Below are positions 26,172 to 46,268 of a stretch of 50,551 bases of DNA, piece after piece (positions within the stretch are counted from its first letter, which is position 1; each line of letters begins with the position of its first letter). The notes below the pieces were generated by a model, which saw only the letters and a program-made list of their open reading frames with translations, had not been told where the DNA came from and made no database searches. Origin of the DNA: Chloroflexi bacterium OHK40 (GTDB lineage: Bacteria; Chloroflexota; Chloroflexia; Chloroflexales; Chloroflexaceae). Made by a program: the position numbers and the translations under genes. The stretch lies in contig SFCB01000109.1 in the NCBI GenBank assembly GCA_004367505.1, forward strand, positions 1 to 50,551, in the 5' to 3' direction.

Positions 26172-28120
26172 TCACCGTGTTCGCTTGCCCATCTTGAGCT
26201 GGGCCTTGACCGTGTTGACCGAGACGACGAACTGCTGCGAGATCTCCGCGCTGGTCATGCCCGCTGCGAACAGGCGCAGCACCTCCCGCTCCCGCTCGGT
26301 CAGCGCCTCGCGTAAAGCGTTTGCGCGTTCAGGCGTGGGGCGCAGCACCGGAGCGCCCTGGCCCTCCACCGCCCGACCGTGGCCGCCGCCGGTCGGGAAG
26401 GCGGCAAGCAGCCGGCGAAGATAGGGCTGGGCAGGGTGGTAATCGCGGCCTGCGTCAGGCGGTAGGCGATCGCCAGTTCCTCTGCGGCGCCCGCCAGCTT
26501 CCCCTGCTCGATCAGCACGTTCCCCAGCCAGATGTGCAAGGCACTTGCCGGTGGCAGCTGCCCCCAGCCTTCCTCCGCCACCCCAGGCGAGCGCCGTAGT
26601 GGCCGCCGCCAGCGCGTCGCGCAGCCGGCCCTGAAGGTGTCGCAGCTTAATAATCTCGTTCGCACTGAAGATCCCGCTCACCGCGTTGCCTGCCTCGCGG
26701 CACACGCGCACGTTCGCAGCGTAGACCTCTATCGCCTCATCGGTCTGTCCCAGCACCATCAGTGCGTAGCCGCGCACCAGACCGTTAGTGCTACGCATCC
26801 CGTACGCCTCCGGTGGGAGCAACTGGTCCGCCTCGCGGGCCAGTTCGAGCGCTTCGGGGACACGGCCCTGCTCGATCGCCACCTGGGCTCGCAGGGTCAG
26901 CAGTGCGCCCCGCAGAGCCACCGCATCAGTCCCGCTCGCGTCTAGCCCCCGCCTCGGCCGCCTGGAGAAAGGGACTGACCGCGCTCACCCGGCGGTCGTG
27001 GACGAGCACCTGGGCCTGGACGAGACACAGCCGCGGGTTGGCAAGGAGCGCCGCGTGGGGCAAGGCGTCGAGCCAGCCCTGGAGCGTGTGGGCCTCGCCG
27101 CGGTCAACGAAGCCCGGCCCGTGGACGGCGAGCAGGCGCACGACAAGGTTGGCATCACTTGCGGCGAGGGCGTGGCCGATCTCCTCGGCCACAACACCCT
27201 GCCCTGCGAACCAGTGAGCGGCGCGCCGGAGCAACGCCAAGCACCGCATCGCACAGCGGCCCCGACAGCCGGTCGAGCACGGCGGTCTGGAGCAAGAAGG
27301 CGCGGATGTGTTCGGGCTGGCGAGCGAGCACCTCCTCGGCCAGGTAGTCGACCACGTGGCGATGGCTGCCGCTGAAGCCGGCGACGAAGCCGCGCACGTC
27401 AGCCTGGCCCTGGAGCGAGAGGGCGGCGAGCTGGAGACCAGCGGCCCAGCCCTCGGTGCGGGCCTCAAGGGCCGCAGCCGCCTCGGCGTCGAGGTCGAGC
27501 CCCATCGTCTCCCCGAAGAACTGGAGCGCCTCCTCGGGCGTGAAGTGCAGGTCGGCGGCGCGCAGCTCGACGAGCTCGCCGCGGGCGCGCCAGCGAGCCA
27601 GCTGCAGCGGCAGGTCGACCCGGTTGGCGAGCACGAGGTGGAGCTGCAGCGGGGCGTAGTCGAGCAGGAAGCCAACACGCTCGTGGATGGCAGGGCTGCT
27701 GATGACGTGGAAGTCGTCGAGGACGAGGACGACCTGCGCGAGGCTGGCGGCGGCGGCGTTGAGTAGCTCGACGGTGGCCACCTCGACTGCGGCCGGGGCC
27801 GCACGGAATACCGCCAGAGCCCCTTCACCAAGGCCGAGGCGGGCCCACTCCAACGCGGTGCAGACGTAGCTCCAGAATCGCGCCGGGTCGTTGTCGCCGG
27901 CGTCCAGCCCAACCCAGGCGACATGTGCCTCGTCCGCGAGCGCCTGGGCGAGGATGGTGCTCTTGCCGAAGCCGGCGGGCGCGGTGATCAGGGTGAACCG
28001 CCCGCGTAGACCATGCCGCACGCGCGCGACCCGGCGCGTGCGTGAGACGGCACCAGGACGCGGGAGTGGCCGGTGGAGCTTGGTGGCGAGCAGCGGGGAG
28101 GCCAGAACCGGAAGGTACAC
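26172..28120 (-). pseudogene. MalT-like LuxR-family regulator, multiply frameshifted
   Basis: A GTG at 28120 opens a frame with the MalT N-terminus LASPLLATKLHRP, P-loop TAPAGFGKST and Walker B VLVLDDFHVI. The continuation changes frame near 27240 (then WFAGQGVVAEEIGHALAA...). It changes again near 26920 (LREADQLL-like TPR helices), near 26560 (HIWLGNVLIEQGKLAGAAEEL) and back near 26430. It ends in a LuxR helix-turn-helix, LTEREREVLRLFAAGMTSAEI, whose last helix is cut after VNTVKAQLK. At least four frame changes and a truncated DNA-binding domain make it non-functional. Confidence 0.8.
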
Positions 28121-28181
28121 GCAGTACCTCGCGTAAAGCGAGAGTGCTCGTAGTATAGCATTGCCTGCGCCGACCTCAGCG

Positions 28182-30722
28182 CTACTGAGCAACGGCGCGC
28201 TTGCTACCCGCAGCCGACGGGGCCGCGGGGGCGCGCAGCTCGCGCTCGACGTTGCGCAGCAGCACCGCATTCACGGCCACGATGATCGAGGAGGCCGACA
28301 TCAGCAGGGCTGCCCACTCCGGCCGCAGCTCGAGCCCGAAGGACGGGTAGAGCACCCCCGCCGCCACCGGGATGGCCAGCACGTTGTAGATCGCCGCCCA
28401 GAACAGGTTCTGCTTCATCTTGCGCACCGTCGCCTTCGAGACGGTGAGGGCGTTCAGGATGTCGAGCGGGTCGCTCTTCATCAGCACCACGTCGGCGGTC
28501 TCGATCGCCACGTCGGTGCCCGCGCCGATGGCGATCCCGGTGTCGGCCTGGGCCAGGGCCGGCGCGTCGTTCACCCCGTCGCCTACCATAGCCACCCGCT
28601 TGCCCTCAGCCTGGAGTGCCTTGACGTGGCCGGCCTTGTCGGCGGGCAGCACCTCAGCGAAGAAGCGCGTAATCCCGAGCTGCTTCGCCACCGCCTCGGC
28701 GGTGCGCTGGTTGTCGCCGGTGATCATCACTGGCTCGATGCCCTGCTCCCGCAGGCGGCGGATCGTTTCGGCCGCCGTCGGCTTGACCCGGTCGGCCACG
28801 GCAATCAGCCCGGCGGCCTGGTCGTCCACCGCGATGTACATAGGCGTCTTGCCCGCCGAGGCCAGATCGGCCGCACGGGCCTCCAGCGCGGAGGCGTCAA
28901 TGCCATGATCGCGCATCAGCTTGCTGTTGCCGATCAGCAGCGTGCGCCCGTCCACCGTGGCCCGGATGCCGTGGCCGGCAATTGAGTCGAATGCGCTCGC
29001 GTCGGTCAGCGCCAGCCCGCGCTCGCGGGCGCCCTGCACGATGGCCTCGGCCAGGGGGTGCTCGGAGCCGCGCTCGGCGGAGGCGACGAGCCGTAGCAAC
29101 TCGTGCTCGGAGATGCCACCGCTCGTCACCAGGTCGGTGAGCGCCGGCTTGCCTTCGGTGAGTGTGCCGGTTTTGTCGAGCACGATCGCATTCGTCTGCG
29201 AGACACCCTCCAGGGTCGCCGCGTCCTTGATCAGGATATTGTGTCTGGCGGCCACGCCGGTGCCCACCGCGACCGCCGTCGGGGTGGCCAGGCCGAGGGC
29301 GTCGGGGCAGGCGATCACCACCGCCGAGATGGCAAAGGTCAGCGCGAGGGCGAGCGGCGCGCCGACGACGAAATACCAGACGATGAACGTCAGCAGGCCA
29401 GCGCCGACGGCGAGGATGACCAGGTATTGGGCGGCCTTGTCGGCCAGGCGCTGGCCCGGTGCCTTCGAGCGCTGGGCGCGCTGGACCAGCGCGACGATCT
29501 GGGCCACGGTGGTGTCGGCACCGACCCTGGTGGCGCGGAAGCGCAGGCTGCCGCTGCGGTTGATCGCGCCGGCGATCACCGGGTCGTCCGGGCGCCTGGT
29601 GACCGGCACGCTCTCTCCGGTAACGAGCGCCTCGTCGATGCTCGACTCGCCCTCGGTCACCACGCCGTCTACCGGCACCCTGTCGCCCGGGCGCAGCACG
29701 ACGATGTCGTCGATCTGCACCTCGGCGCTGGGGATACTGCGCTCCTGGCCACCGCGGATGACCGTAGCTGTGGGCGGCACGAGGTCGAAGAGCGCGCGGA
29801 GGGCGTCCGAAGTACCCCGGCGCGAGCGCATCTCCATCCAGTGGCCAAAGAGCACGAAGGTCACCAGCATCGCCGCAGCCTCAAAGAAGGTCTCCTGGCC
29901 CAGCACCATCAGGGCCAGGCTGCCGCCGTAGGCGGCGAGCACGCCGGTGGCGACCAGCACGCTCATATTCAGAGCGCGCCGGCGCAGCGAGTGGTAGGCC
30001 CCGGCGATGAACATCCAGCCGGCGTAGAAGACCACCGGGGTGGTCAGCAGGAGCATGATCAGGTCCATGCTCAGGCCGAAGGTGGGCAGGTTCACCCCGA
30101 AGATGTTCATGCCCATCGGCGAGTAGAGCACGGTCGGAATGGTAAGCACGAGCGCGATGAAGAACTTGGTGCGCATGTCGCGCTCCATCGCGGCGGCCAT
30201 CGACGGATCGGACATGTCGTGGCCCATATCGCCGTGGGCGCCGTGGTCCATCGTGGCGCCGCCGTGGGCGCCGTGGTCCATCGCGGCCTGGCCGGCTGGC
30301 CGGGCGCCGGCGGCGTGCTGGGCGTGCTGGGCGTGGGCGCCAGTGGCGGGCAACTCGTACTGCATGCGGTCGTGGCGCGTGCCCATGATGATTGGCTGCA
30401 CATCCACGCCGTGGCGCAGGTTCTGGAACCGGGCCCGGGCGCTAGCCTCACTGTGCTGCGCGTGGTGAGCGTGCCCGTCGGCGCTAGCCTCCTCGCAGGG
30501 GCAGCCGGTTGCTTCAATGATGCTCTGAATCGCCGCATCATCGAGCATATCGGCGTGGTAGCCGACGTGGACGACGCTGTTGGGCCAGTCGAGGTGAACG
30601 CTGGTGATATGGGGGTTGGCCGTGAGCGCGCGCTCGACCGCGTCGGCGCAGTCGAGGCAGTGCAGGCCGCTCAAGCTCAGCGCAGCGTGGGCTGGGGCCG
30701 CAGTATGGGGGGCGTGGGCCAT
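28182..30722 (-). CDS. Heavy-metal (probably copper) translocating P1B-type ATPase with CPD motif
   Basis: Membrane pump of 846 residues. The N-terminus is an HMA domain with metal-binding GLHCLDC (Cys22, Cys25). A roughly 100-residue His/Met-rich linker with repeated MDHGAHG units follows. The pump core has TGES phosphatase motif, ion-binding ACPDALGLATP (CPD where CopA has CPC and CopB CPH), phosphorylation DKTGTLT, HP in SEHPLAEA and the hinge MVGDGVNDAPAL. About eight transmembrane helices are expected. GGAGAGGAGA precedes the ATG. It lies 147 bp downstream of a response regulator gene on the same strand. Metal is inferred as copper from the His/Met-rich linker and DUF305 neighbour. Confidence 0.9.
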   Translation of the reverse strand: MAHAPHTAAPAHAALSLSGLHCLDCADAVERALTANPHITSVHLDWPNSVVHVGYHADMLDDAAIQSIIEATGCPCEEASADGHAHHAQHSEASARARFQNLRHGVDVQPIIMGTRHDRMQYELPATGAHAQHAQHAAGARPAGQAAMDHGAHGGATMDHGAHGDMGHDMSDPSMAAAMERDMRTKFFIALVLTIPTVLYSPMGMNIFGVNLPTFGLSMDLIMLLLTTPVVFYAGWMFIAGAYHSLRRRALNMSVLVATGVLAAYGGSLALMVLGQETFFEAAAMLVTFVLFGHWMEMRSRRGTSDALRALFDLVPPTATVIRGGQERSIPSAEVQIDDIVVLRPGDRVPVDGVVTEGESSIDEALVTGESVPVTRRPDDPVIAGAINRSGSLRFRATRVGADTTVAQIVALVQRAQRSKAPGQRLADKAAQYLVILAVGAGLLTFIVWYFVVGAPLALALTFAISAVVIACPDALGLATPTAVAVGTGVAARHNILIKDAATLEGVSQTNAIVLDKTGTLTEGKPALTDLVTSGGISEHELLRLVASAERGSEHPLAEAIVQGARERGLALTDASAFDSIAGHGIRATVDGRTLLIGNSKLMRDHGIDASALEARAADLASAGKTPMYIAVDDQAAGLIAVADRVKPTAAETIRRLREQGIEPVMITGDNQRTAEAVAKQLGITRFFAEVLPADKAGHVKALQAEGKRVAMVGDGVNDAPALAQADTGIAIGAGTDVAIETADVVLMKSDPLDILNALTVSKATVRKMKQNLFWAAIYNVLAIPVAAGVLYPSFGLELRPEWAALLMSASSIIVAVNAVLLRNVERELRAPAAPSAAGSKRAVAQ

Positions 30723-30869: not shown

Positions 30870-32108
30870 TCAGGTGTCAGCGATCTTGTACTTCTCCAGT
30901 CGATAGAGCAGCGTATGGCGGGTCAGGCCGAGCAGTTCGGCAGCGCGGGTCTTGTTGCCCCCGGCGCGGGCGAGCGCCTGGCGGATGAGCGCGATCTCCA
31001 ACTCCACCAGGGACAGGCCCTCGGGCGGGAGGCGCACAGGCGCGTTCGGTAGCGGCGCTGAGCGCACCCGCTCAGGCAGGTGCTGCACCTCGATCGGTCC
31101 CGCACCGGCCAGCTTGTCGGCCCGCTCGATCGCGGCGCGCAGCTCGCCCAGATTGCCCGGCCAGTCGTAGGCGTGCAGTAGCTCGGCTGCGGCCGGGGCG
31201 ATTGCCCGGTTGGGCAGCCAGGCGGCAACGAAGGGCAGCAGGTCGTCGAGGTGAGCGCGTAGCGGCGGTACCTCGACCACGACATAGCGCTGGGGTAGCG
31301 CTGGAGCGGCCGCCCACTCGTCGGCGGTGCCGGTGAGCAGGAGCAGGGGGCCGACACCGCTTGCGCTGCGGTGTTCGAGCAGGCGTACCAGCGCATCGGC
31401 GCCTGAGCGGCTCAGCCTGCCGATGTGGCGCAGCAGCAGCACCCCGCTGCCCGCCGCGCGCCAGTAGCCCGCCGCGCGCCCATCGCCGTCCAGCATGGTG
31501 CTCTGCTCGGCCGCCGGCAGCACCCCCAGATCGCAAACGACGAGCGGCGCGGTGCTCCGGGGCGATGCCAGGTGCGCGGCCCGCCCAACGCTTGCGCGGC
31601 CGCTGCCCGGCTCACCAATGAGTCGCACATCCAGGCCCTGGGCCAGGGCATCTGCGCACGCCGTGATTGCCGCACGCCAGGCCGGGTCGCTGCCTGGGGT
31701 TGGTGGCGGCGCCCCGCCTTTCAGGCGCGCAATCTCCGCCTGGAGGTGCTGACGCTCCAGGGCCCGGCTTAGCTTGAACAGCACCTCTTCGACGTCGAAG
31801 GGTTTGCGCAGGTAGTCTGCCGCGCCGCTCTGCAGCGCCTCGACGGCAGTGGCCACCGTGCCGAAGGCGGTCAGGATCAGCACCACCACCTTGGGCCAGC
31901 GGGTGCGGATCTGCCGCAGGGTTGCCAGCCCGTCCATACCCTTCATCTTCAAGTCGAGGATGGCCACATCGATCGGTGTCTTGACCAGCGTGGCCAGCGC
32001 CTCCTCGCCAGAGCTGGCGGTGTGGGTGTCATAACCGGCGTTGCCGAGCGCCTCCTGAAGCACCCAGCGCATGTTCGGCTCGTCATCGATGATCAGCACC
32101 TGCGCCAT
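30870..32108 (-). CDS. NtrC-like response regulator with degenerate ATPase domain
   Basis: Regulator of 412 residues. The receiver domain has acidic pair DDE at 8-10, phospho-Asp52 in ILDLKMKG, and Lys in RKPF. The central AAA+ domain is decayed: Walker A reads GEPGSGRAS (Lys to Arg), the Walker B region reads GVLLLRHIG where FLDEIG is expected, and no GAFTGA loop is found. The C-terminus is a Fis-type helix-turn-helix (NKTRAAELLGLTRHTLLYRL). It should bind DNA but not drive sigma-54 open complex formation. The start at 32108 was chosen because the receiver begins there; it overlaps the kinase gene by 26 bp. Confidence 0.88.
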   Translation of the reverse strand: MAQVLIIDDEPNMRWVLQEALGNAGYDTHTASSGEEALATLVKTPIDVAILDLKMKGMDGLATLRQIRTRWPKVVVLILTAFGTVATAVEALQSGAADYLRKPFDVEEVLFKLSRALERQHLQAEIARLKGGAPPPTPGSDPAWRAAITACADALAQGLDVRLIGEPGSGRASVGRAAHLASPRSTAPLVVCDLGVLPAAEQSTMLDGDGRAAGYWRAAGSGVLLLRHIGRLSRSGADALVRLLEHRSASGVGPLLLLTGTADEWAAAPALPQRYVVVEVPPLRAHLDDLLPFVAAWLPNRAIAPAAAELLHAYDWPGNLGELRAAIERADKLAGAGPIEVQHLPERVRSAPLPNAPVRLPPEGLSLVELEIALIRQALARAGGNKTRAAELLGLTRHTLLYRLEKYKIADT

Positions 32109-33444
32109 GGGCAAGCTCCTGGGGAATAGTGATGCTGACGCGCGTCCCCTGACCCAGGGCACTTTCAAAGCGCAGCTTCCCGCCGTGCTCCTGTACCACG
32201 GCGGCCACCAGAGCCAGGCCCAGGCCAGTGCCCTCGGGACGAGTGGTGAAGAAGGGGTCGCAGGCCCGCTCCTGCTCCTCGGGCGACATGCCACGCCCTG
32301 TGTCGGCCACGGAAAGCGTCGCAGTCGCTCCATCAGAAGCACCGACAAGGCGCACCACACCCCCAGTCGAGCTTGCCTGCACCGCGTTCAGCAGCAAGTT
32401 CAAGAGCGCCTGGCGAAGCTGCTCCTCGTCTGCCACAATCGTCGTGCCGGTCACAGCTTCACACACCACGCTGACCCCCTGATGAAGCGCGTAGGGCCGC
32501 ACCTGCTGCGCGGCGGCGTCAAGCAAGCCTGCCAGGTCGAGCGGCGTGGGCAGGGGCGGTCGCGGGCGGGCGTACTCCAGCAGGTCGCTGATCAGCCGCT
32601 CGATCCGGTCGGATTCGCTGGTGAGCACCTGGGTGTACTGACGCAGCGACGCGTTCTCGCCGGCCAGGCCGGCAAGGAGTTGGGCGGTAGCGCGAACGAT
32701 GGCGAGCGGGTTGCGCACCTCGTGGGCGACCCCGGCGGCGAGCTGGCCGACCGAGGCCAGGCGGTCAACCCGGCGCAACTGGGCCTCCAGGGCGCGGCGG
32801 TCGGTCAGGTCCTCGATCACCAGGACGCGGCTGTCATCCGACGCGGCGGGGGCGTCGAGCGATGAGACGTAGAGGCCGAGCGGGCGCTGGCCCTGCTCGA
32901 AGGAGTGGTAGCCGAGGGCCAGGGGACGGGCCAGGGCCTCGGGCGGCAGAGCTGGGAGCAGGGTGTGCGCCGCTCGGTTCTGGGGCGTAGGCGGGCTCCA
33001 CCCGCTGGTGGTCGCCACGCCGAGGGGCAAACTTTGCAGCACCGCGTCGATGTAGCTGCGCAGCCCCTCCGCGCGGCGGCGCTGCGCCCGCTCGCGGTCG
33101 GCGAGGAAGCCGACTAGTCCGCCGACGAGCAGGAAGACTGGCAACTCGAGCAGGTTGTCGGCCGTGCCACCGGACAGGGTCTCGCCCATGCCAAGCACGT
33201 GCGGCAGGTAGAGCAGCGTGACAACCACGCTCACTGCGAGGCCGCCGCGCAAGCCGAATGCGACGGCGGCCCCGGCGATCGGCAGGTAGTAGAGGCTGCG
33301 GTAGACGGTGTGGTACTCCAGCAGGTGCGCGCCGGTCAGATAGTGCAGTACGGTGACGGCAAGAATGACGACCGCGACGAGCGCCAGCACAACTGCCTGG
33401 CTACGCGGGAGCCGGAAGACCGGCGTGGCACGAGCGACATCCAT
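32083..33444 (-). CDS. Membrane sensor histidine kinase
   Basis: Kinase of 453 residues, partner of the overlapping response regulator. The N-terminal 110 residues form about four transmembrane helices with very short loops, so the signal may be sensed in or at the membrane. A short PAS-like segment follows. The phospho-acceptor His is in GVAHEVRNPL, the N-box in LNLLLNAVQAS, and G-boxes in DTGRGM and GTGLGLAL. The layout resembles NtrB/ZraS/AtoS-type kinases. It lies in the putative metal-stress operon, 52 bp after the DUF305 gene. Confidence 0.9.
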   Translation of the reverse strand: MDVARATPVFRLPRSQAVVLALVAVVILAVTVLHYLTGAHLLEYHTVYRSLYYLPIAGAAVAFGLRGGLAVSVVVTLLYLPHVLGMGETLSGGTADNLLELPVFLLVGGLVGFLADRERAQRRRAEGLRSYIDAVLQSLPLGVATTSGWSPPTPQNRAAHTLLPALPPEALARPLALGYHSFEQGQRPLGLYVSSLDAPAASDDSRVLVIEDLTDRRALEAQLRRVDRLASVGQLAAGVAHEVRNPLAIVRATAQLLAGLAGENASLRQYTQVLTSESDRIERLISDLLEYARPRPPLPTPLDLAGLLDAAAQQVRPYALHQGVSVVCEAVTGTTIVADEEQLRQALLNLLLNAVQASSTGGVVRLVGASDGATATLSVADTGRGMSPEEQERACDPFFTTRPEGTGLGLALVAAVVQEHGGKLRFESALGQGTRVSITIPQELAHGAGADHR

Positions 33445-33496: not shown

Positions 33497-34111
33497 CTAC
33501 TGCTCAATCCCATACCACTCGCTGAGCCACTGGCGCATCTGGGCGATCTCGGCCTCCTGGGCGCTGATGATCGCCTGCGCCAGGTCTTTGAGCTCCTGAT
33601 GCTCAGCGTTCTGCAGCGCGTCCCGGGCCATGGCGATCGCGCTCTCGTGGTGCGGGATCATGGCCTGGATAAAGCGCTGGTCGAAGGGAGCATCGCCGGC
33701 TGGTACCTCGGTCGGCCCCATATCCATCACCATGCCGCCGGTCTCGGCGAGATCGGGGTACCAGGCGGTACGCCACTCTTTCATCTGGCCAATCTCGGCC
33801 TCCTGGGCCATGAGGATGGCGTTCGCCAGATCCTTGACCTCCTGCCGCTCGCCCTGCTCCAGCGCCTGGTTGGCCATGAAGATCGCGCCCTCATGATGCA
33901 CGATCATGCTGTCGATAAAGACAGCGTCGTAGGGCTGGCCCTCAGCGGGGATCACGCCGTGATCCATACCTCCCATCCCGCCATGATCCATTTCAGCTAT
34001 CGCCTCAGCCGTTGGCTCGGTCGACATTTGTGTCGCCGGACTGCCACAACCGGCCAGGAGCGCAAGCAATAGAAGAGCGGAGCAAACAATTCCAGTATGC
34101 CTCGGACCCAT
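33497..34111 (-). CDS. DUF305 lipoprotein with two DUF305 units
   Basis: Exported lipoprotein of 204 residues; the ATG at 34111 follows AGGAAGGA and gives a signal with lipobox LAGC (Cys22). Two helical units repeat the pattern F-I-x-x-M-I-x-H-H-E-x-A-I ... LA-x-A-I-x-x-A-Q-E-A-E-I-x-Q-M, spaced about 95 residues apart (around residues 73 and 160). A Met/His-rich stretch (MDHGGMGGMDHG) precedes the first. DUF305 proteins are ferritin-like and often found with copper resistance genes. This is the first gene of the putative operon and probably binds metal outside the membrane. Confidence 0.88.
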   Translation of the reverse strand: MGPRHTGIVCSALLLLALLAGCGSPATQMSTEPTAEAIAEMDHGGMGGMDHGVIPAEGQPYDAVFIDSMIVHHEGAIFMANQALEQGERQEVKDLANAILMAQEAEIGQMKEWRTAWYPDLAETGGMVMDMGPTEVPAGDAPFDQRFIQAMIPHHESAIAMARDALQNAEHQELKDLAQAIISAQEAEIAQMRQWLSEWYGIEQ

Positions 34112-34491
34112 GGATGCGTCCTTCCTGTCGACTCTGCGTTCACTCATTCCCTGTATTGGACTACCTGGAAGAGGTTAGCACGGAGGTGGGAGCCGGTCAA
34201 AATGTCGCGGACATGCGCCTAAAATCAGGCGACAACTGCCGCAAATCACACGAAAGTGTGTGATTACGCACGCCTCGCTTATCCACTACCTTTGCACTTT
34301 TAACCACCGCTATGCCGCAAGCTGGCGGACAATGGCGGCAAAGGCTTTCTGATGCTGAAACTACTGGCGCAGCCAGTTGAGCAGATGGGGTCGTCAAACA
34401 GCACCTCGATGTCCAAGTGCACGGCCAGATGGTGGATCAGGGCATCGCGGGCTTGAGTAGGAGAAGTTCGTGCTTGAGGCCGTCAGAGCGC
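34112..34491. other. 380-bp stretch without a supported gene
   Basis: It holds the presumed promoter of the DUF305 operon and a palindrome at 34244-34265. Between about 34300 and 34480 the minus strand can be read as short protein-like pieces (AFAAIVRQLAA, ALIHHLAVHLDIEVLF) broken by stops, possibly the worn remains of a transposase. I could not identify a family. Confidence 0.4.
34244..34265. promoter_or_regulatory. Palindrome upstream of the DUF305 operon
   Basis: AATCACA and TGTGATT arms (7 bp, perfect) flank an 8-bp centre, and an inner CAC/GTG pair extends the symmetry. It is AT-rich relative to its surroundings and lies about 130 bp upstream of the DUF305 start, so it could be an operator. 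It could equally be a hairpin of unknown role. Confidence 0.35.
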
Positions 34492-43932: not shown

Positions 43933-44649
43933 ATGGCCCTTACCGCACTGGTTGTGGACGACGACCCGAAGACGGTCGAGCTGATCACGCTCTATATGGA
44001 GCGCGAGGGCTTCACCGTCGTGAGCGCCTACGACGGCCGTCGGGCTCTCGACCTCGCCCGTCAGCGACACCCCGACCTGATCGTGCTTGACCTGATGTTG
44101 CCCCACGTCGACGGGCTCGACATCACGCGCATCATCCGCAGCGAGTCCCGGGTGCCCGTGATCATGCTCACGGCCCGCACCACCGAGCACGATATGCTGC
44201 TCGGACTCGACCTCGGCGCCGACGACTATGTGACCAAGCCGTTCAGCCCGCGCGAGTTGATGGCTCGGGTGCGGGCGGTGATGCGCCGCGCCCGGGCCGC
44301 CTACGAGTCCGCCCCGGCGATCGTGCGTTACCGCGAGCTCGTGATCAGCTTTGCGAGCCGCGAGGTGCGCCGCCACGGGGAGTTGGTGCGCCTGACGCCG
44401 AAGGAGTACGGCCTGCTGGAGCTGATGGCCCGCTCGCCCGGGCGGGCTTTCGCCCGCGCTGAGCTGCTCCGACACGTTTTCGGTGCGGACTATGAAGGTC
44501 TCGACCGCACCGTCGATGTCCATGTGATGAACCTGCGCCGCAAGATCGAGCCTGACCCGGCAAACCCCTGCTACGTACTCACGGTCTACGGCTACGGCTA
44601 CAAGTTCGGCGCGGAGAGCGAGAGTCCGGCGGGAGGGACAGCGCTGTGA
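43933..44649 (+). CDS. OmpR/PhoB-family response regulator
   Basis: Regulator of 238 residues. The receiver has DDD at 9-11, phospho-Asp53 in [12 protein letters not shown], Thr in MLTART and Lys in TKPFSPRE. The C-terminal winged helix contains [31 protein letters not shown] and the recognition region [16 protein letters not shown], ending in the usual YGYGYKF. The stop overlaps the GTG of the kinase gene. Divergent from the binding-protein/efflux-like genes and next to an 11-bp repeat array, it probably controls them and itself. Confidence 0.93.
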
Positions 44650-46268
44650 GCAACATCCTTATGCTCCACTCACTGCGCTTGCGCCTGCTGCTGACCATGA
44701 TCGCCCTGGTGGCGCTCACGGCGGGCGCTGTGGCGGTTCTGGCGTGGCGGATTACTGTCTCGGAGTTCGAGCGCTACCTTGCGCTGGAGAGCGAGCGCAG
44801 TCGTCGTGTCGGCGAGTTGTTCACGGCGGCGAGCGAGTTGCCCAGGCTCGATCAGGCCGGGCGGGAGGCGGTGATCCGCGCGATGAGCGAACAGTCCGGC
44901 TACAGGGTGGTGCTCGCGGAGACCACCGGCACGATCCTGATCGACTCAGCCGGCCTCGCCCTGGGGTGGAACGCCCGCGACCTCGACCCGTCCGAGGTGC
45001 TGATCGTCCGGCTCGACCCGGTCCCGGCGGGGAGCTCCCTTAGTACCCCGGGAGCCGACGTCGAGGTCGTCCTGGGAACGCCGCCAGAGCTGAGCGCGCC
45101 GCCGATCCTCGGCCCAACAGCGGTCCCGGTTCAGGGTTCCGCTGTGCAGGCGTCGCAGCCGGGCGCTTTCGTGGTCTACTCCACGCTGCCGTTCTCGGAC
45201 ACGGCGGCGAGCGAGGCCGCCTCCATGGTGCAGCTGGCGGGTTCTCCAGTGAACATCCAGTGGTCGCAATTCGCCGGCCCCGACCCGATCCAGGCCAGCT
45301 TCGTCAGTGGGGTCAACCGCTCGCTGGGGCTAGCCGTGGTGGTGGCGGGGCTGGCGGCGCTGGTGCTGACGGCGGTGCTTTCACGGGGGATCATCGGCCC
45401 ACTTGAGGAGTTGCGCGCCGTGGCTACGCGCATGGCGACGGGCGATTTGAGCGGCCGGGTGAGCGTGCGCTCGCGGGACGAGATCGGCGCACTGGGTCGG
45501 GCTTTCAACAGCATGGCCGATGCCCTGGAGCGCGCCGAGCAGCTGCGCCGGACCATGGTGAGCGACGTTGCCCATGAGCTGCGGACACCACTGACGAATA
45601 TGCGGGGCTACCTGGAGGCGATCAGCGATGGCGTCGTCAGTCCGACGCCCCGCACGATCAACTCGCTCCACGAGGAGGCCATGCTGCTCAATCGCCTTGT
45701 GGACGACCTGCAGGACCTGGCGCTAGCCGACGCGGGGCAACTGCGGCTCCGGTACTGCCCGACCGACATGGGCGTGCTCGCCGAGCAGGCGGTGGCCGTG
45801 TTTCGGCCCCGTATGGAGGCGAAGGGCGTGACCTGCGTGCTACGGCTCCCTGAGGCACTTCCGCTTGCCGAGCTCGACGCCGAGCGGGTGGGCCAGGTAC
45901 TGCGGAACCTGCTCAACAACGCCCTGACCCACACGCCTGCCGGGGGCTCGGTGACGGTGGAGGTGCGGGAGCGGGACGAGGACGCCGGGCCGGCGCTGGA
46001 GCTGAGCGTGGAGGATACGGGTGCGGGGATCGCGCCGGAGGATCTGCCGCTGATCTTCGAGCGCTTCTACCGGGCGGATCGCTCGCGGAATCGCGCTACC
46101 GGCGGCGCCGGGCTCGGCCTGACGATCGTTCGGCGCCTGGTCGAGGCCCATGGTGGCGAGGTCACGGTGAGCAGCACGCTCGGCGTCGGCTCGCGCTTCA
46201 CGTTTACCGTGCCAACAGCTCGGGTTGGCGATCAAAGTCCGGCAGCACCTGTCGGGCACGTGCGATGA
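44646..46268 (+). CDS. HAMP-domain sensor histidine kinase
   Basis: Kinase of 540 residues starting at GTG 44646 in a GTGA overlap with the regulator gene. The first transmembrane helix is at about 13-33 and an extracytoplasmic sensor of about 190 residues follows. The second helix is near 227-250, then HAMP ([21 protein letters not shown]). The acceptor His is in [12 protein letters not shown], the N-box in [12 protein letters not shown]-boxes in DTGAGI and GLGLTIV. Its large external domain could contact the duplicated binding lipoprotein encoded next door. The last 20 residues beyond FTFTVP are non-conserved and run up to an IS3 remnant. Confidence 0.92.

Follow-up and report, generated by a model that had tools for sequence, protein, structure and literature searches.

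Several regulators built like NtrC have parted from sigma54. TyrR, DhaR and HupR are described as paralogues of enhancer-binding proteins that lost sigma54, VpsR and YplP as probably sigma54-independent, and sigma54 itself as occurring in only some Chloroflexi, all in the available text of one paper (PMC3162934). According to the available part of another (PMC10274813), the NtrC proteins of Caulobacter and R. capsulatus, which lack the GAFTGA motif, need their phosphorylation site and work with sigma70; both need ATP binding, that of Caulobacter needs hydrolysis as well, and Caulobacter has sigma54 despite its GAFTGA-less NtrC. NtrC-type regulators also occur in copper control. CorSR of M. xanthus is described, in the text available, as a copper two-component system with an NtrC-type regulator, controlling the curA operon, whose genes encode DUF305, CopA (a P1B ATPase), a multicopper oxidase and cytochrome c (PMC3707914). 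CopM of Synechocystis is reported to bind Cu(I) and to be controlled by a linked two-component system (available text of PMC4335983).

The window analyzed here is the whole 50,551-nucleotide stretch of contig SFCB01000109.1 from Chloroflexi bacterium OHK40. It contains a locus with the gene order copM, kinase, regulator, P1B ATPase (Table 1), in which CopM adjoins a putative copper two-component system, as described for copMRS of Synechocystis. The copper genes found beside this NtrC-type regulator and its relatives include kinds described for CorSR/curA of M. xanthus. CorR, however, has a full Sigma54_activat domain (1.9e-67) and predicted sigma54 promoters (available text of PMC3707914), unlike the decayed regulator described here. 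Judged by its motifs, the clade to which the latter belongs is an extreme variant of the NtrC-type regulators that lost sigma54 (NtrX, VpsR, R. capsulatus NtrC and TyrR). Our search of the open-licence literature, with most subscription journals outside its range, found no description of the clade or of its operator.

The regulator protein

Table 1. Features of the locus (window positions; residues are those of the regulator)
Feature	Position	Strand	Details
Copper-type P1B ATPase	28182..30722	-	HMA domain and His/Met-rich stretch; TIGR01511 597.7 bits, cut-off 397
NtrC-type response regulator, AAA+ domain dead by its motifs	30870..32108	-	412 aa; stop codon included
Fis-type HTH (HTH_8)	30879..31013	-	About residues 366-410; Pfam 1.7e-13
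Degenerate Walker B, LLLRHIG	31419..31439	-	Residues 224-230; both acids gone, RH instead (alignment)
Degenerate Walker A, GEPGSGRAS	31590..31616	-	Residues 165-173; Lys to Arg (alignment)
Receiver domain	31755..32108	-	Residues 1-118; Response_reg 9.2e-30 (Pfam); D8/D9, D52, T80, K102
Partner histidine kinase	32083..33444	-	DUF4118-like membrane part, HisKA, HATPase_c (Pfam)
CopM family (DUF305) lipoprotein-like copper metallochaperone	33497..34147	-	NF049983 123.5 bits, cut-off 90
Predicted sigma70-like promoter, TTGACC-N17-TAACCT	34172..34200	-	-35 begins 36 bp from operator
Probable operator, tandem 16-bp palindromes 20 bp apart	34237..34272	-	Upstream of copM; score 21.75, matrix built without the window

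The first 26 nt of the regulator gene overlap the 3' end of the kinase gene. The same frame could open at a GTG at 32360 (496 aa); the ATG at 32108 was chosen because the homologues begin there. Both the receiver and the Fis-type DNA-binding domain are clearly matched, and the residues expected for phosphorylation (D8/D9, D52, T80 and K102) are invariant in an alignment of seven homologues. The region between them matches Sigma54_activat weakly (1e-7) and over only part of the model; AAA_lid_14 is also matched (Pfam). When the protein was aligned to an intact activator of its own genome, a 9-residue gap ran across GAFTGA. A second 9-residue gap removed the FREDL part of the arginine-finger segment FREDLYYRL, with YYRL replaced. 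Sensor II reads GNLGEL as against GNVRQL or GNVREL, and its Arg is lost.

Of the hallmarks of a sigma54-dependent enhancer-binding protein, the receiver and Fis-type HTH are present, and the Walker A Lys, the Walker B acids, GAFTGA and the arginine-finger segment are all missing. By these criteria of sequence the sigma54-activating domain is dead, and to annotate it as "sigma-54 dependent" would be misleading. The protein falls below the cut-offs of the NtrC, AtoC and ZraR equivalogs of NCBIfam (167.8, 193.4 and 172.4 bits against 558.6, 714 and 760). An NtrC architecture without a usable GAFTGA is a feature that it shares with NtrX, HupR, VpsR and R. capsulatus NtrC. A first-pass annotation had described a decayed sigma-54 activating domain between an intact receiver and an intact Fis-type domain, with Walker A Lys changed to Arg, RH in place of the Walker B pair and no GAFTGA loop. 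The alignment and the domain matches bear this out in each particular, and the decay evidently goes further than was stated there, where loss of the FREDL finger was not mentioned.

The PgtA model (NF047793) matches residues 3-410 of 412 with 88 bits against a cut-off of 650, and the regulator is therefore not a PgtA orthologue. PgtA is concerned with transport, not copper.

Selection and predicted structure

In seven pairwise comparisons the AAA+ remnant gave dN/dS of about 0.20-0.46, values that are only rough, like those that follow, because dS was near saturation in several comparisons. The receiver gave 0.05-0.15 (estimable in six of the seven pairs) and the HTH 0.06-0.19 (five of seven). 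Since its values lie above those of the receiver, the remnant is, on these estimates, retained under relaxed purifying selection.

An AlphaFold model built from a seven-row alignment (mean pLDDT 80.8, pTM 0.44) preserves the alpha/beta core, the lid and the HTH. Its best match among solved structures is the alphaproteobacterial NtrX (5m7o/5m7p), over the whole length (Foldseek 6.6e-29; VIA Z 25.9, rmsd 22.0 over 397 aligned residues). The VIA-align rows mostly span residues 1-137 and carry little information on the AAA+ remnant. As the pTM and the whole-length rmsd are poor, we make no claim on domain arrangement. To go by their titles, the NtrX structures bind ATP or ADP, whereas the window regulator has no Walker A Lys, Walker B or FREDL; NtrX of Caulobacter is itself described as lacking GAFTGA (available text of PMC10274813). 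VpsR, which binds c-di-GMP according to its structure title, is also among the structural matches. The clade exceeds the NtrC proteins of Caulobacter and R. capsulatus in its apparent loss of nucleotide-site motifs: their nucleotide site is reported as needed, whereas that of the window regulator is destroyed in sequence, and theirs is a nitrogen function where copper is suggested here.

Distribution of the decayed regulator

A tree of 51 rows placed the 13 full-length members of the decayed clade on one side of a branch with support of 100/100, apart from 17 of the order's activators. Another sequence of the order (G021 C624) grouped with Thalassospira sequences. Two copies were left out of the tree, one lying in two frames (G056) and one a fragment near a contig end (G021). 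Alignment with NtrC-family homologues of the phylum, as the first-pass annotation had proposed, revealed the same losses throughout this clade, with GAFTGA, the Walker B acids and FREDL absent from all 13 members. The losses named for the window protein are thus a family trait as regards Walker B and the GAFTGA loop; the change of Walker A Lys to Arg is so only in part, being found in seven members of Chloroflexaceae and Roseiflexaceae type, while the six from Herpetosiphon keep the Lys. The Kouleothrix member still has an Arg at the second finger position (FERL), and in H. aurantiacus the gap over GAFTGA extends to ~19 residues.

An assembly artefact was considered and ruled out, because identical losses recur in 13 full-length homologues, six of them from Herpetosiphon and isolate genomes included.

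The decayed regulator occurs in 14 of the 82 genomes of the order, once as a fragment and once split over two frames. A second copy in the window's own genome, on contig C223, is 72 % identical and has its own copM and kinase genes. The split copy (G056, L173:8358-9723) retains an operator and a kinase gene, and its broken frame represents either a sequencing error or a recent loss. Beyond the order, 18 genomes gave matches at 1e-38, and four were inspected. One (G383) has a full decayed member with the Walker A Lys kept. Another (G095, L188:2891-4123) has a transitional homologue in which a degenerate loop of near-normal length is accompanied by loss of the Walker B acids and retention of the Walker A Lys. 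The remaining two have a fragment (G083) and a near canonical protein (G346).

Copper genes at the regulator loci

Copper genes are found at 12 of the 15 regulator loci examined, a count that leaves out the G021 fragment and the G095 and G083 loci. CopM is encoded at the window locus (together with a P1B ATPase), at C223, in G383 and at the six Herpetosiphon loci, where it was identified by Pfam/NCBIfam in L171 and by 80-95 % identity in the other five. Multicopper oxidase and DUF411 genes occur in G029 and, with a P1B ATPase gene, in G056, and a Csp-like DUF326 gene occurs in Kouleothrix. No copper gene was seen at G004, L045 and L046, which are short contigs of 3.9-6.1 kb. The regulator of copMRS in Synechocystis is OmpR-like.

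A kinase gene adjoins the regulator at 11 of the 15 loci (window, C223, six Herpetosiphon, G056, G383 and, cut, L046); none was seen beside it at the other four (G029, Kouleothrix, G004, L045). The linkage of the two-component system to copper is a matter of gene order, and control of the copper genes is suggested by the predicted operators described below. Because of this gene content and the intact receiver, we propose that the membrane kinase would detect copper stress and phosphorylate D52.

The window P1B ATPase has CPD in its membrane metal-site motif (ACPDALGLATPTA) and a His/Met-rich stretch after the HMA domain; in P1B ATPases this motif is usually CPC or CPH. SH3-NlpC/P60 genes adjoin the regulator in three Roseiflexaceae-type loci, and a further copy lies on C160 of the own genome (together L214:7211-8860; L045:2216-3553; L046:2163-3749; L173:6671-8341).

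A probable operator

The kinase-copM intergenic regions of six Herpetosiphon genomes each contain two TGTRGCAWWTGCYACA palindromes 19 bp apart. This consensus is 16 bp long, two copies make up a site, and the differences among Herpetosiphon subclades preserve its symmetry. When the Herpetosiphon-derived consensus was applied to seven other loci (window, C223, G029, G056, Kouleothrix, G004 and L045), a pair exactly 20 bp apart was found in each. The score summed over these loci was 175 at a spacing of 20, compared with 128-149 at the 24 other spacings in the range 16-40 and with a maximum of 138 in 2000 shuffles. Spacing 20 had been picked after a first look at the sites; as a property of the predicted operator it is supported by the scan and by held-out loci, which were scored at 19-21. 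Per-locus P ranged from 0 of 2000 shuffles to 0.016, the latter for the window, whose operator is the weakest of the seven by consensus (21 of 32 positions).

A leave-one-out matrix recovered the operator at all seven loci (0 of 500 shuffles). No 20-bp tandem site in the window scored higher than the one listed in Table 1, the next best reaching 9.55. Held-out sites behaved similarly: in G383, outside the order, the two top sites of 16 kb, one before the kinase gene and one before copM, scored 35.8 and 24.9 and the third 11.6, and in L046 one scored 27.3 before a ferric-reductase-like gene (next 9.6). Neither consensus nor matrix found an operator directly before the window P1B ATPase gene, and the 86-bp stretch ahead of the L046 regulator gave none by consensus. 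By matrix, the best scores in G095, G083 and the contig with the G021 fragment were 7.2, 8.5 and 13.1, and no tandem operator was found there or in the rpoN region.

The strict single Herpetosiphon palindrome, with <=1 mismatch allowed, was present in 10 of 11 genomes searched, the exception being that of the window. Within the intergenic regions the tandem palindrome was the only significant element. A shared word, TGCCACA, occurred in four of six loci, but 121 of 200 shuffle sets also had a 7-mer in >=4 loci, too many for significance. From its co-occurrence with the regulator, the tandem site is probably the operator that this protein recognizes.

Predicted promoters and proposed mode of action

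A scorer with weights devised for this analysis located the best TTGACA-N16-18-TATAAT match beside each operator, and the distance was taken from the operator edge to the start of the -35 box; all start sites are predicted ones. This distance is 36 bp in the window, 37 at C223 and, towards the kinase gene, 36/37 at each of the six Herpetosiphon operators. It is 46/47 in Kouleothrix, G004 and L045, and 56/57 at the second C223 operator, before a solute-binding protein gene, and on the kinase side in G056. These -35 positions are one helical turn apart. Of 13 directions that face a gene, 10 had their top promoter match at phase 6/7 of ten; 1000 shuffles gave at most nine. For this count Herpetosiphon was averaged to two directions, and it omits the directions of G004 and L045 that point away from any gene (best at 20 and 24, off phase), as well as the far side of the boxes in the window and on C223. 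The exceptions were the csp side of Kouleothrix and two G029 directions; the top match on the copM side of Herpetosiphon, at 26, is in phase one turn closer.

With the on-phase set fixed from these first directions, eight of the 16 held-out directions, a set in which some point away from genes, had their match at 36/37, 46/47 or 56/57, against a maximum of 5 of 16 in 1000 shuffles; the held-out matches had been seen before counting, and the other eight directions were off phase. Strong held-out matches were on phase in seven of eight cases (null maximum two), the eighth lying at 48. The best scores for sigma54 -24/-12 elements were at chance in all 13 directions within 120 bp of the operators. 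Outside this 120-bp range, in Kouleothrix, the csp side has one sigma54-like match of 10 of 12 positions. The best reading of the phased -35/-10 boxes, in silico, is that the regulator would act at sigma70-type promoters.

We consider it quite probable that the protein, switched by phosphorylation and independent of ATP, activates a copper regulon through the housekeeping sigma factor, acting as two dimers with the AAA+ remnant as a scaffold. Phosphorylated dimers would sit side by side on the two palindromes 20 bp apart. The remnant would serve by its fold only, holding the pair together without ATPase activity. Bound ~90, 100 or 110 bp ahead of the predicted start, always on one side of the helix, the dimers would activate sigma70-type RNA polymerase at the copper-protection genes. 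The earlier proposal that the architecture has been re-used as an ordinary phospho-regulator is supported, in that the sigma54-activating domain appears dead and the rest looks re-used.

Phosphorylation-controlled repression, or anti-activation, of copper genes at the same sigma70 promoters is unlikely, though it deserves some weight. The operator is autoregulatory in position, and the GAFTGA-less NtrC of Caulobacter is reported to repress hvyA and sciP (available text of PMC10274813). The operator centers, however, lie ~90-110 bp upstream of the predicted start and whole turns from the -35, an arrangement better suited to activation from afar than to occlusion of the promoter.

Candidate regulon

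In the window's own genome a degenerate form of the tandem pattern matched 10 places with <=3 mismatches, and none in the control. By matrix, seven of the 10 score 15.6-27.2 and the other three (C248 and two overlapping at C280) 8.5-11.1; of all these sites, only that of copM on C223 contributed to the scoring matrix. Six of the seven high-scoring boxes lie on C160, C223 and C220, contigs with copper genes. The predicted boxes precede copM in the window, copM on C223 and, also on C223, an SBP_bac_5 solute-binding protein gene (operator at L122:2222-2257, with TTGACG-N17-TATACT at 57 bp). Three others belong to a C160 cluster that encodes DUF305, DUF326, P1B ATPase, redoxin, ferric-reductase-like, sortase, NlpC/P60 and M14 peptidase proteins, and one, on C196, stands before a cytochrome c gene that has a P1B ATPase gene ~2 kb away. 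A fourth C160 box scored 20.1. On C160 the predicted operator of the SH3-NlpC/P60 gene has TTGACA-N17-TATGCT 36 bp away, and on this basis the gene is likely to be a regulon member.

The control genome G006, which lacks the regulator, gave 18 pattern matches against three in its own control. Its best matrix score was 15.3, and the two weakest own boxes (15.6 and 16.9) are therefore not separated from background.

As the operator is assigned to the regulator by co-occurrence, it might instead belong to another copper-responsive regulator, with the decayed protein a passenger drifting to loss. The relaxed AAA+ remnant, the G056 gene that lies in two frames beside a kept operator, and the lone fragment near a contig end in G021 would all suit such an origin. 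We nevertheless judge it improbable, given the strong purifying selection on receiver and HTH and the presence of the operator at loci with no visible gene in common other than the regulator (G004, L045 and Kouleothrix). Palindromic dimer sites, moreover, suit a Fis-type HTH. The tandem pattern was searched in seven genomes, and match places were listed for G004, G006 and G029; in G004 and G029 the single zero-mismatch match listed adjoins the regulator. A G029 match at C392 scores 19.2 by matrix.

Sigma54 in the same genomes

The first-pass annotation had attributed the re-use of the architecture to a lineage without sigma-54, and had named rpoN together with -24/-12 promoters as the signs that would speak against this. 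The own genome has an intact rpoN, on contig C161 (PF04552; 446 aa), with the activator-interacting, core-binding and DNA-binding domains all matched; as described above, -24/-12 elements near the operators were not above chance. An intact receiver-AAA+ protein with GAFTGA (L123:9194-10600, G000:C161) is encoded ~4 kb from rpoN on the same contig. Contamination as the source of this contig is unlikely, because in the tree the adjoining activator nests with those of family relatives.

Across the order, rpoN was matched in 38 of 82 genomes, some matches being interrupted or partial. Among the 14 carriers of the decayed regulator it is uninterrupted in 10, contains a stop in one (G062, Kouleothrix) and gave no match in three (G029, G059 and G061; completeness 96, 93 and 84). 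The isolate H. aurantiacus (G042) has both rpoN and the decayed regulator. Since the rpoN match is uninterrupted in 10 of 14 carriers, the decay does not track its loss and is not explained by it. The three carriers without a match and the patchy occurrence of rpoN in the order speak for a lineage-wide loss of sigma54; with uninterrupted rpoN in nine further carriers, and in the own genome, for which it is refuted, we reject it as the cause of decay and regard it as very improbable in general.

In three family members (G008:C40, G013:C57 and G028:C4) remnants of rpoN with stop codons inside the DNA-binding domain were found, and in this family the gene seems to be in decay.

In the order, the activators linked to rpoN have their GAFTGA ATPase intact, and in many the C-terminus is shortened; HTH_8 is matched in 12 of 17, that of the own genome not among them. 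Residual sigma54 work in a mixed oligomer, in which the decayed regulator targets DNA and an rpoN-linked activator with reduced HTH supplies the ATPase, would draw on the intact AAA+ and missing HTH_8 match of the own activator, but is scarcely credible given the chance-level -24/-12 scores near the operators, the three carriers in which rpoN was not detected and the HTH_8 matches in most such activators. Those same HTH_8 matches weaken the related proposal of two complementary halves, one the decayed regulator and the other an activator devoid of any HTH.

Activation through sigma70, our preferred reading, would make the locus a case of a sigma54 activator turned sigma70 regulator while rpoN persists, in which intermediates can be sampled. 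The operators, promoters and copper regulon are predicted here for a phylum in which we found no such description, and the clade lets the role of an AAA+ domain after loss of all its chemistry be examined. TyrR, DhaR, HupR, VpsR and YplP respond to other signals and several have other domains. More tentatively, and as an account that could well fail, a copper regulon found across Chloroflexota may be under an enhancer-binding protein that changed its sigma factor and kept its mode of working, acting as before from upstream sites fixed on one helical side but now through the housekeeping polymerase, while its AAA+ ring module became stepwise a passive scaffold that sets two dimers next to each other, the loop and Walker B going first and the Walker A Lys last. 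If true, a series from ATP-driven to ATP-free activation would be observable in one gene family with sigma54 still present.

Two further features of the window lie outside this locus. At 26172-28270 the AAA ATPase part and the TPR/LuxR part of a MalT-like regulator sit in separate ORFs, and the gene may for that reason be broken. At 43933-46268 a pair consisting of an OmpR-type response regulator and a HAMP kinase adjoins a solute-binding protein and an ABC/FtsX/HlyD cluster.
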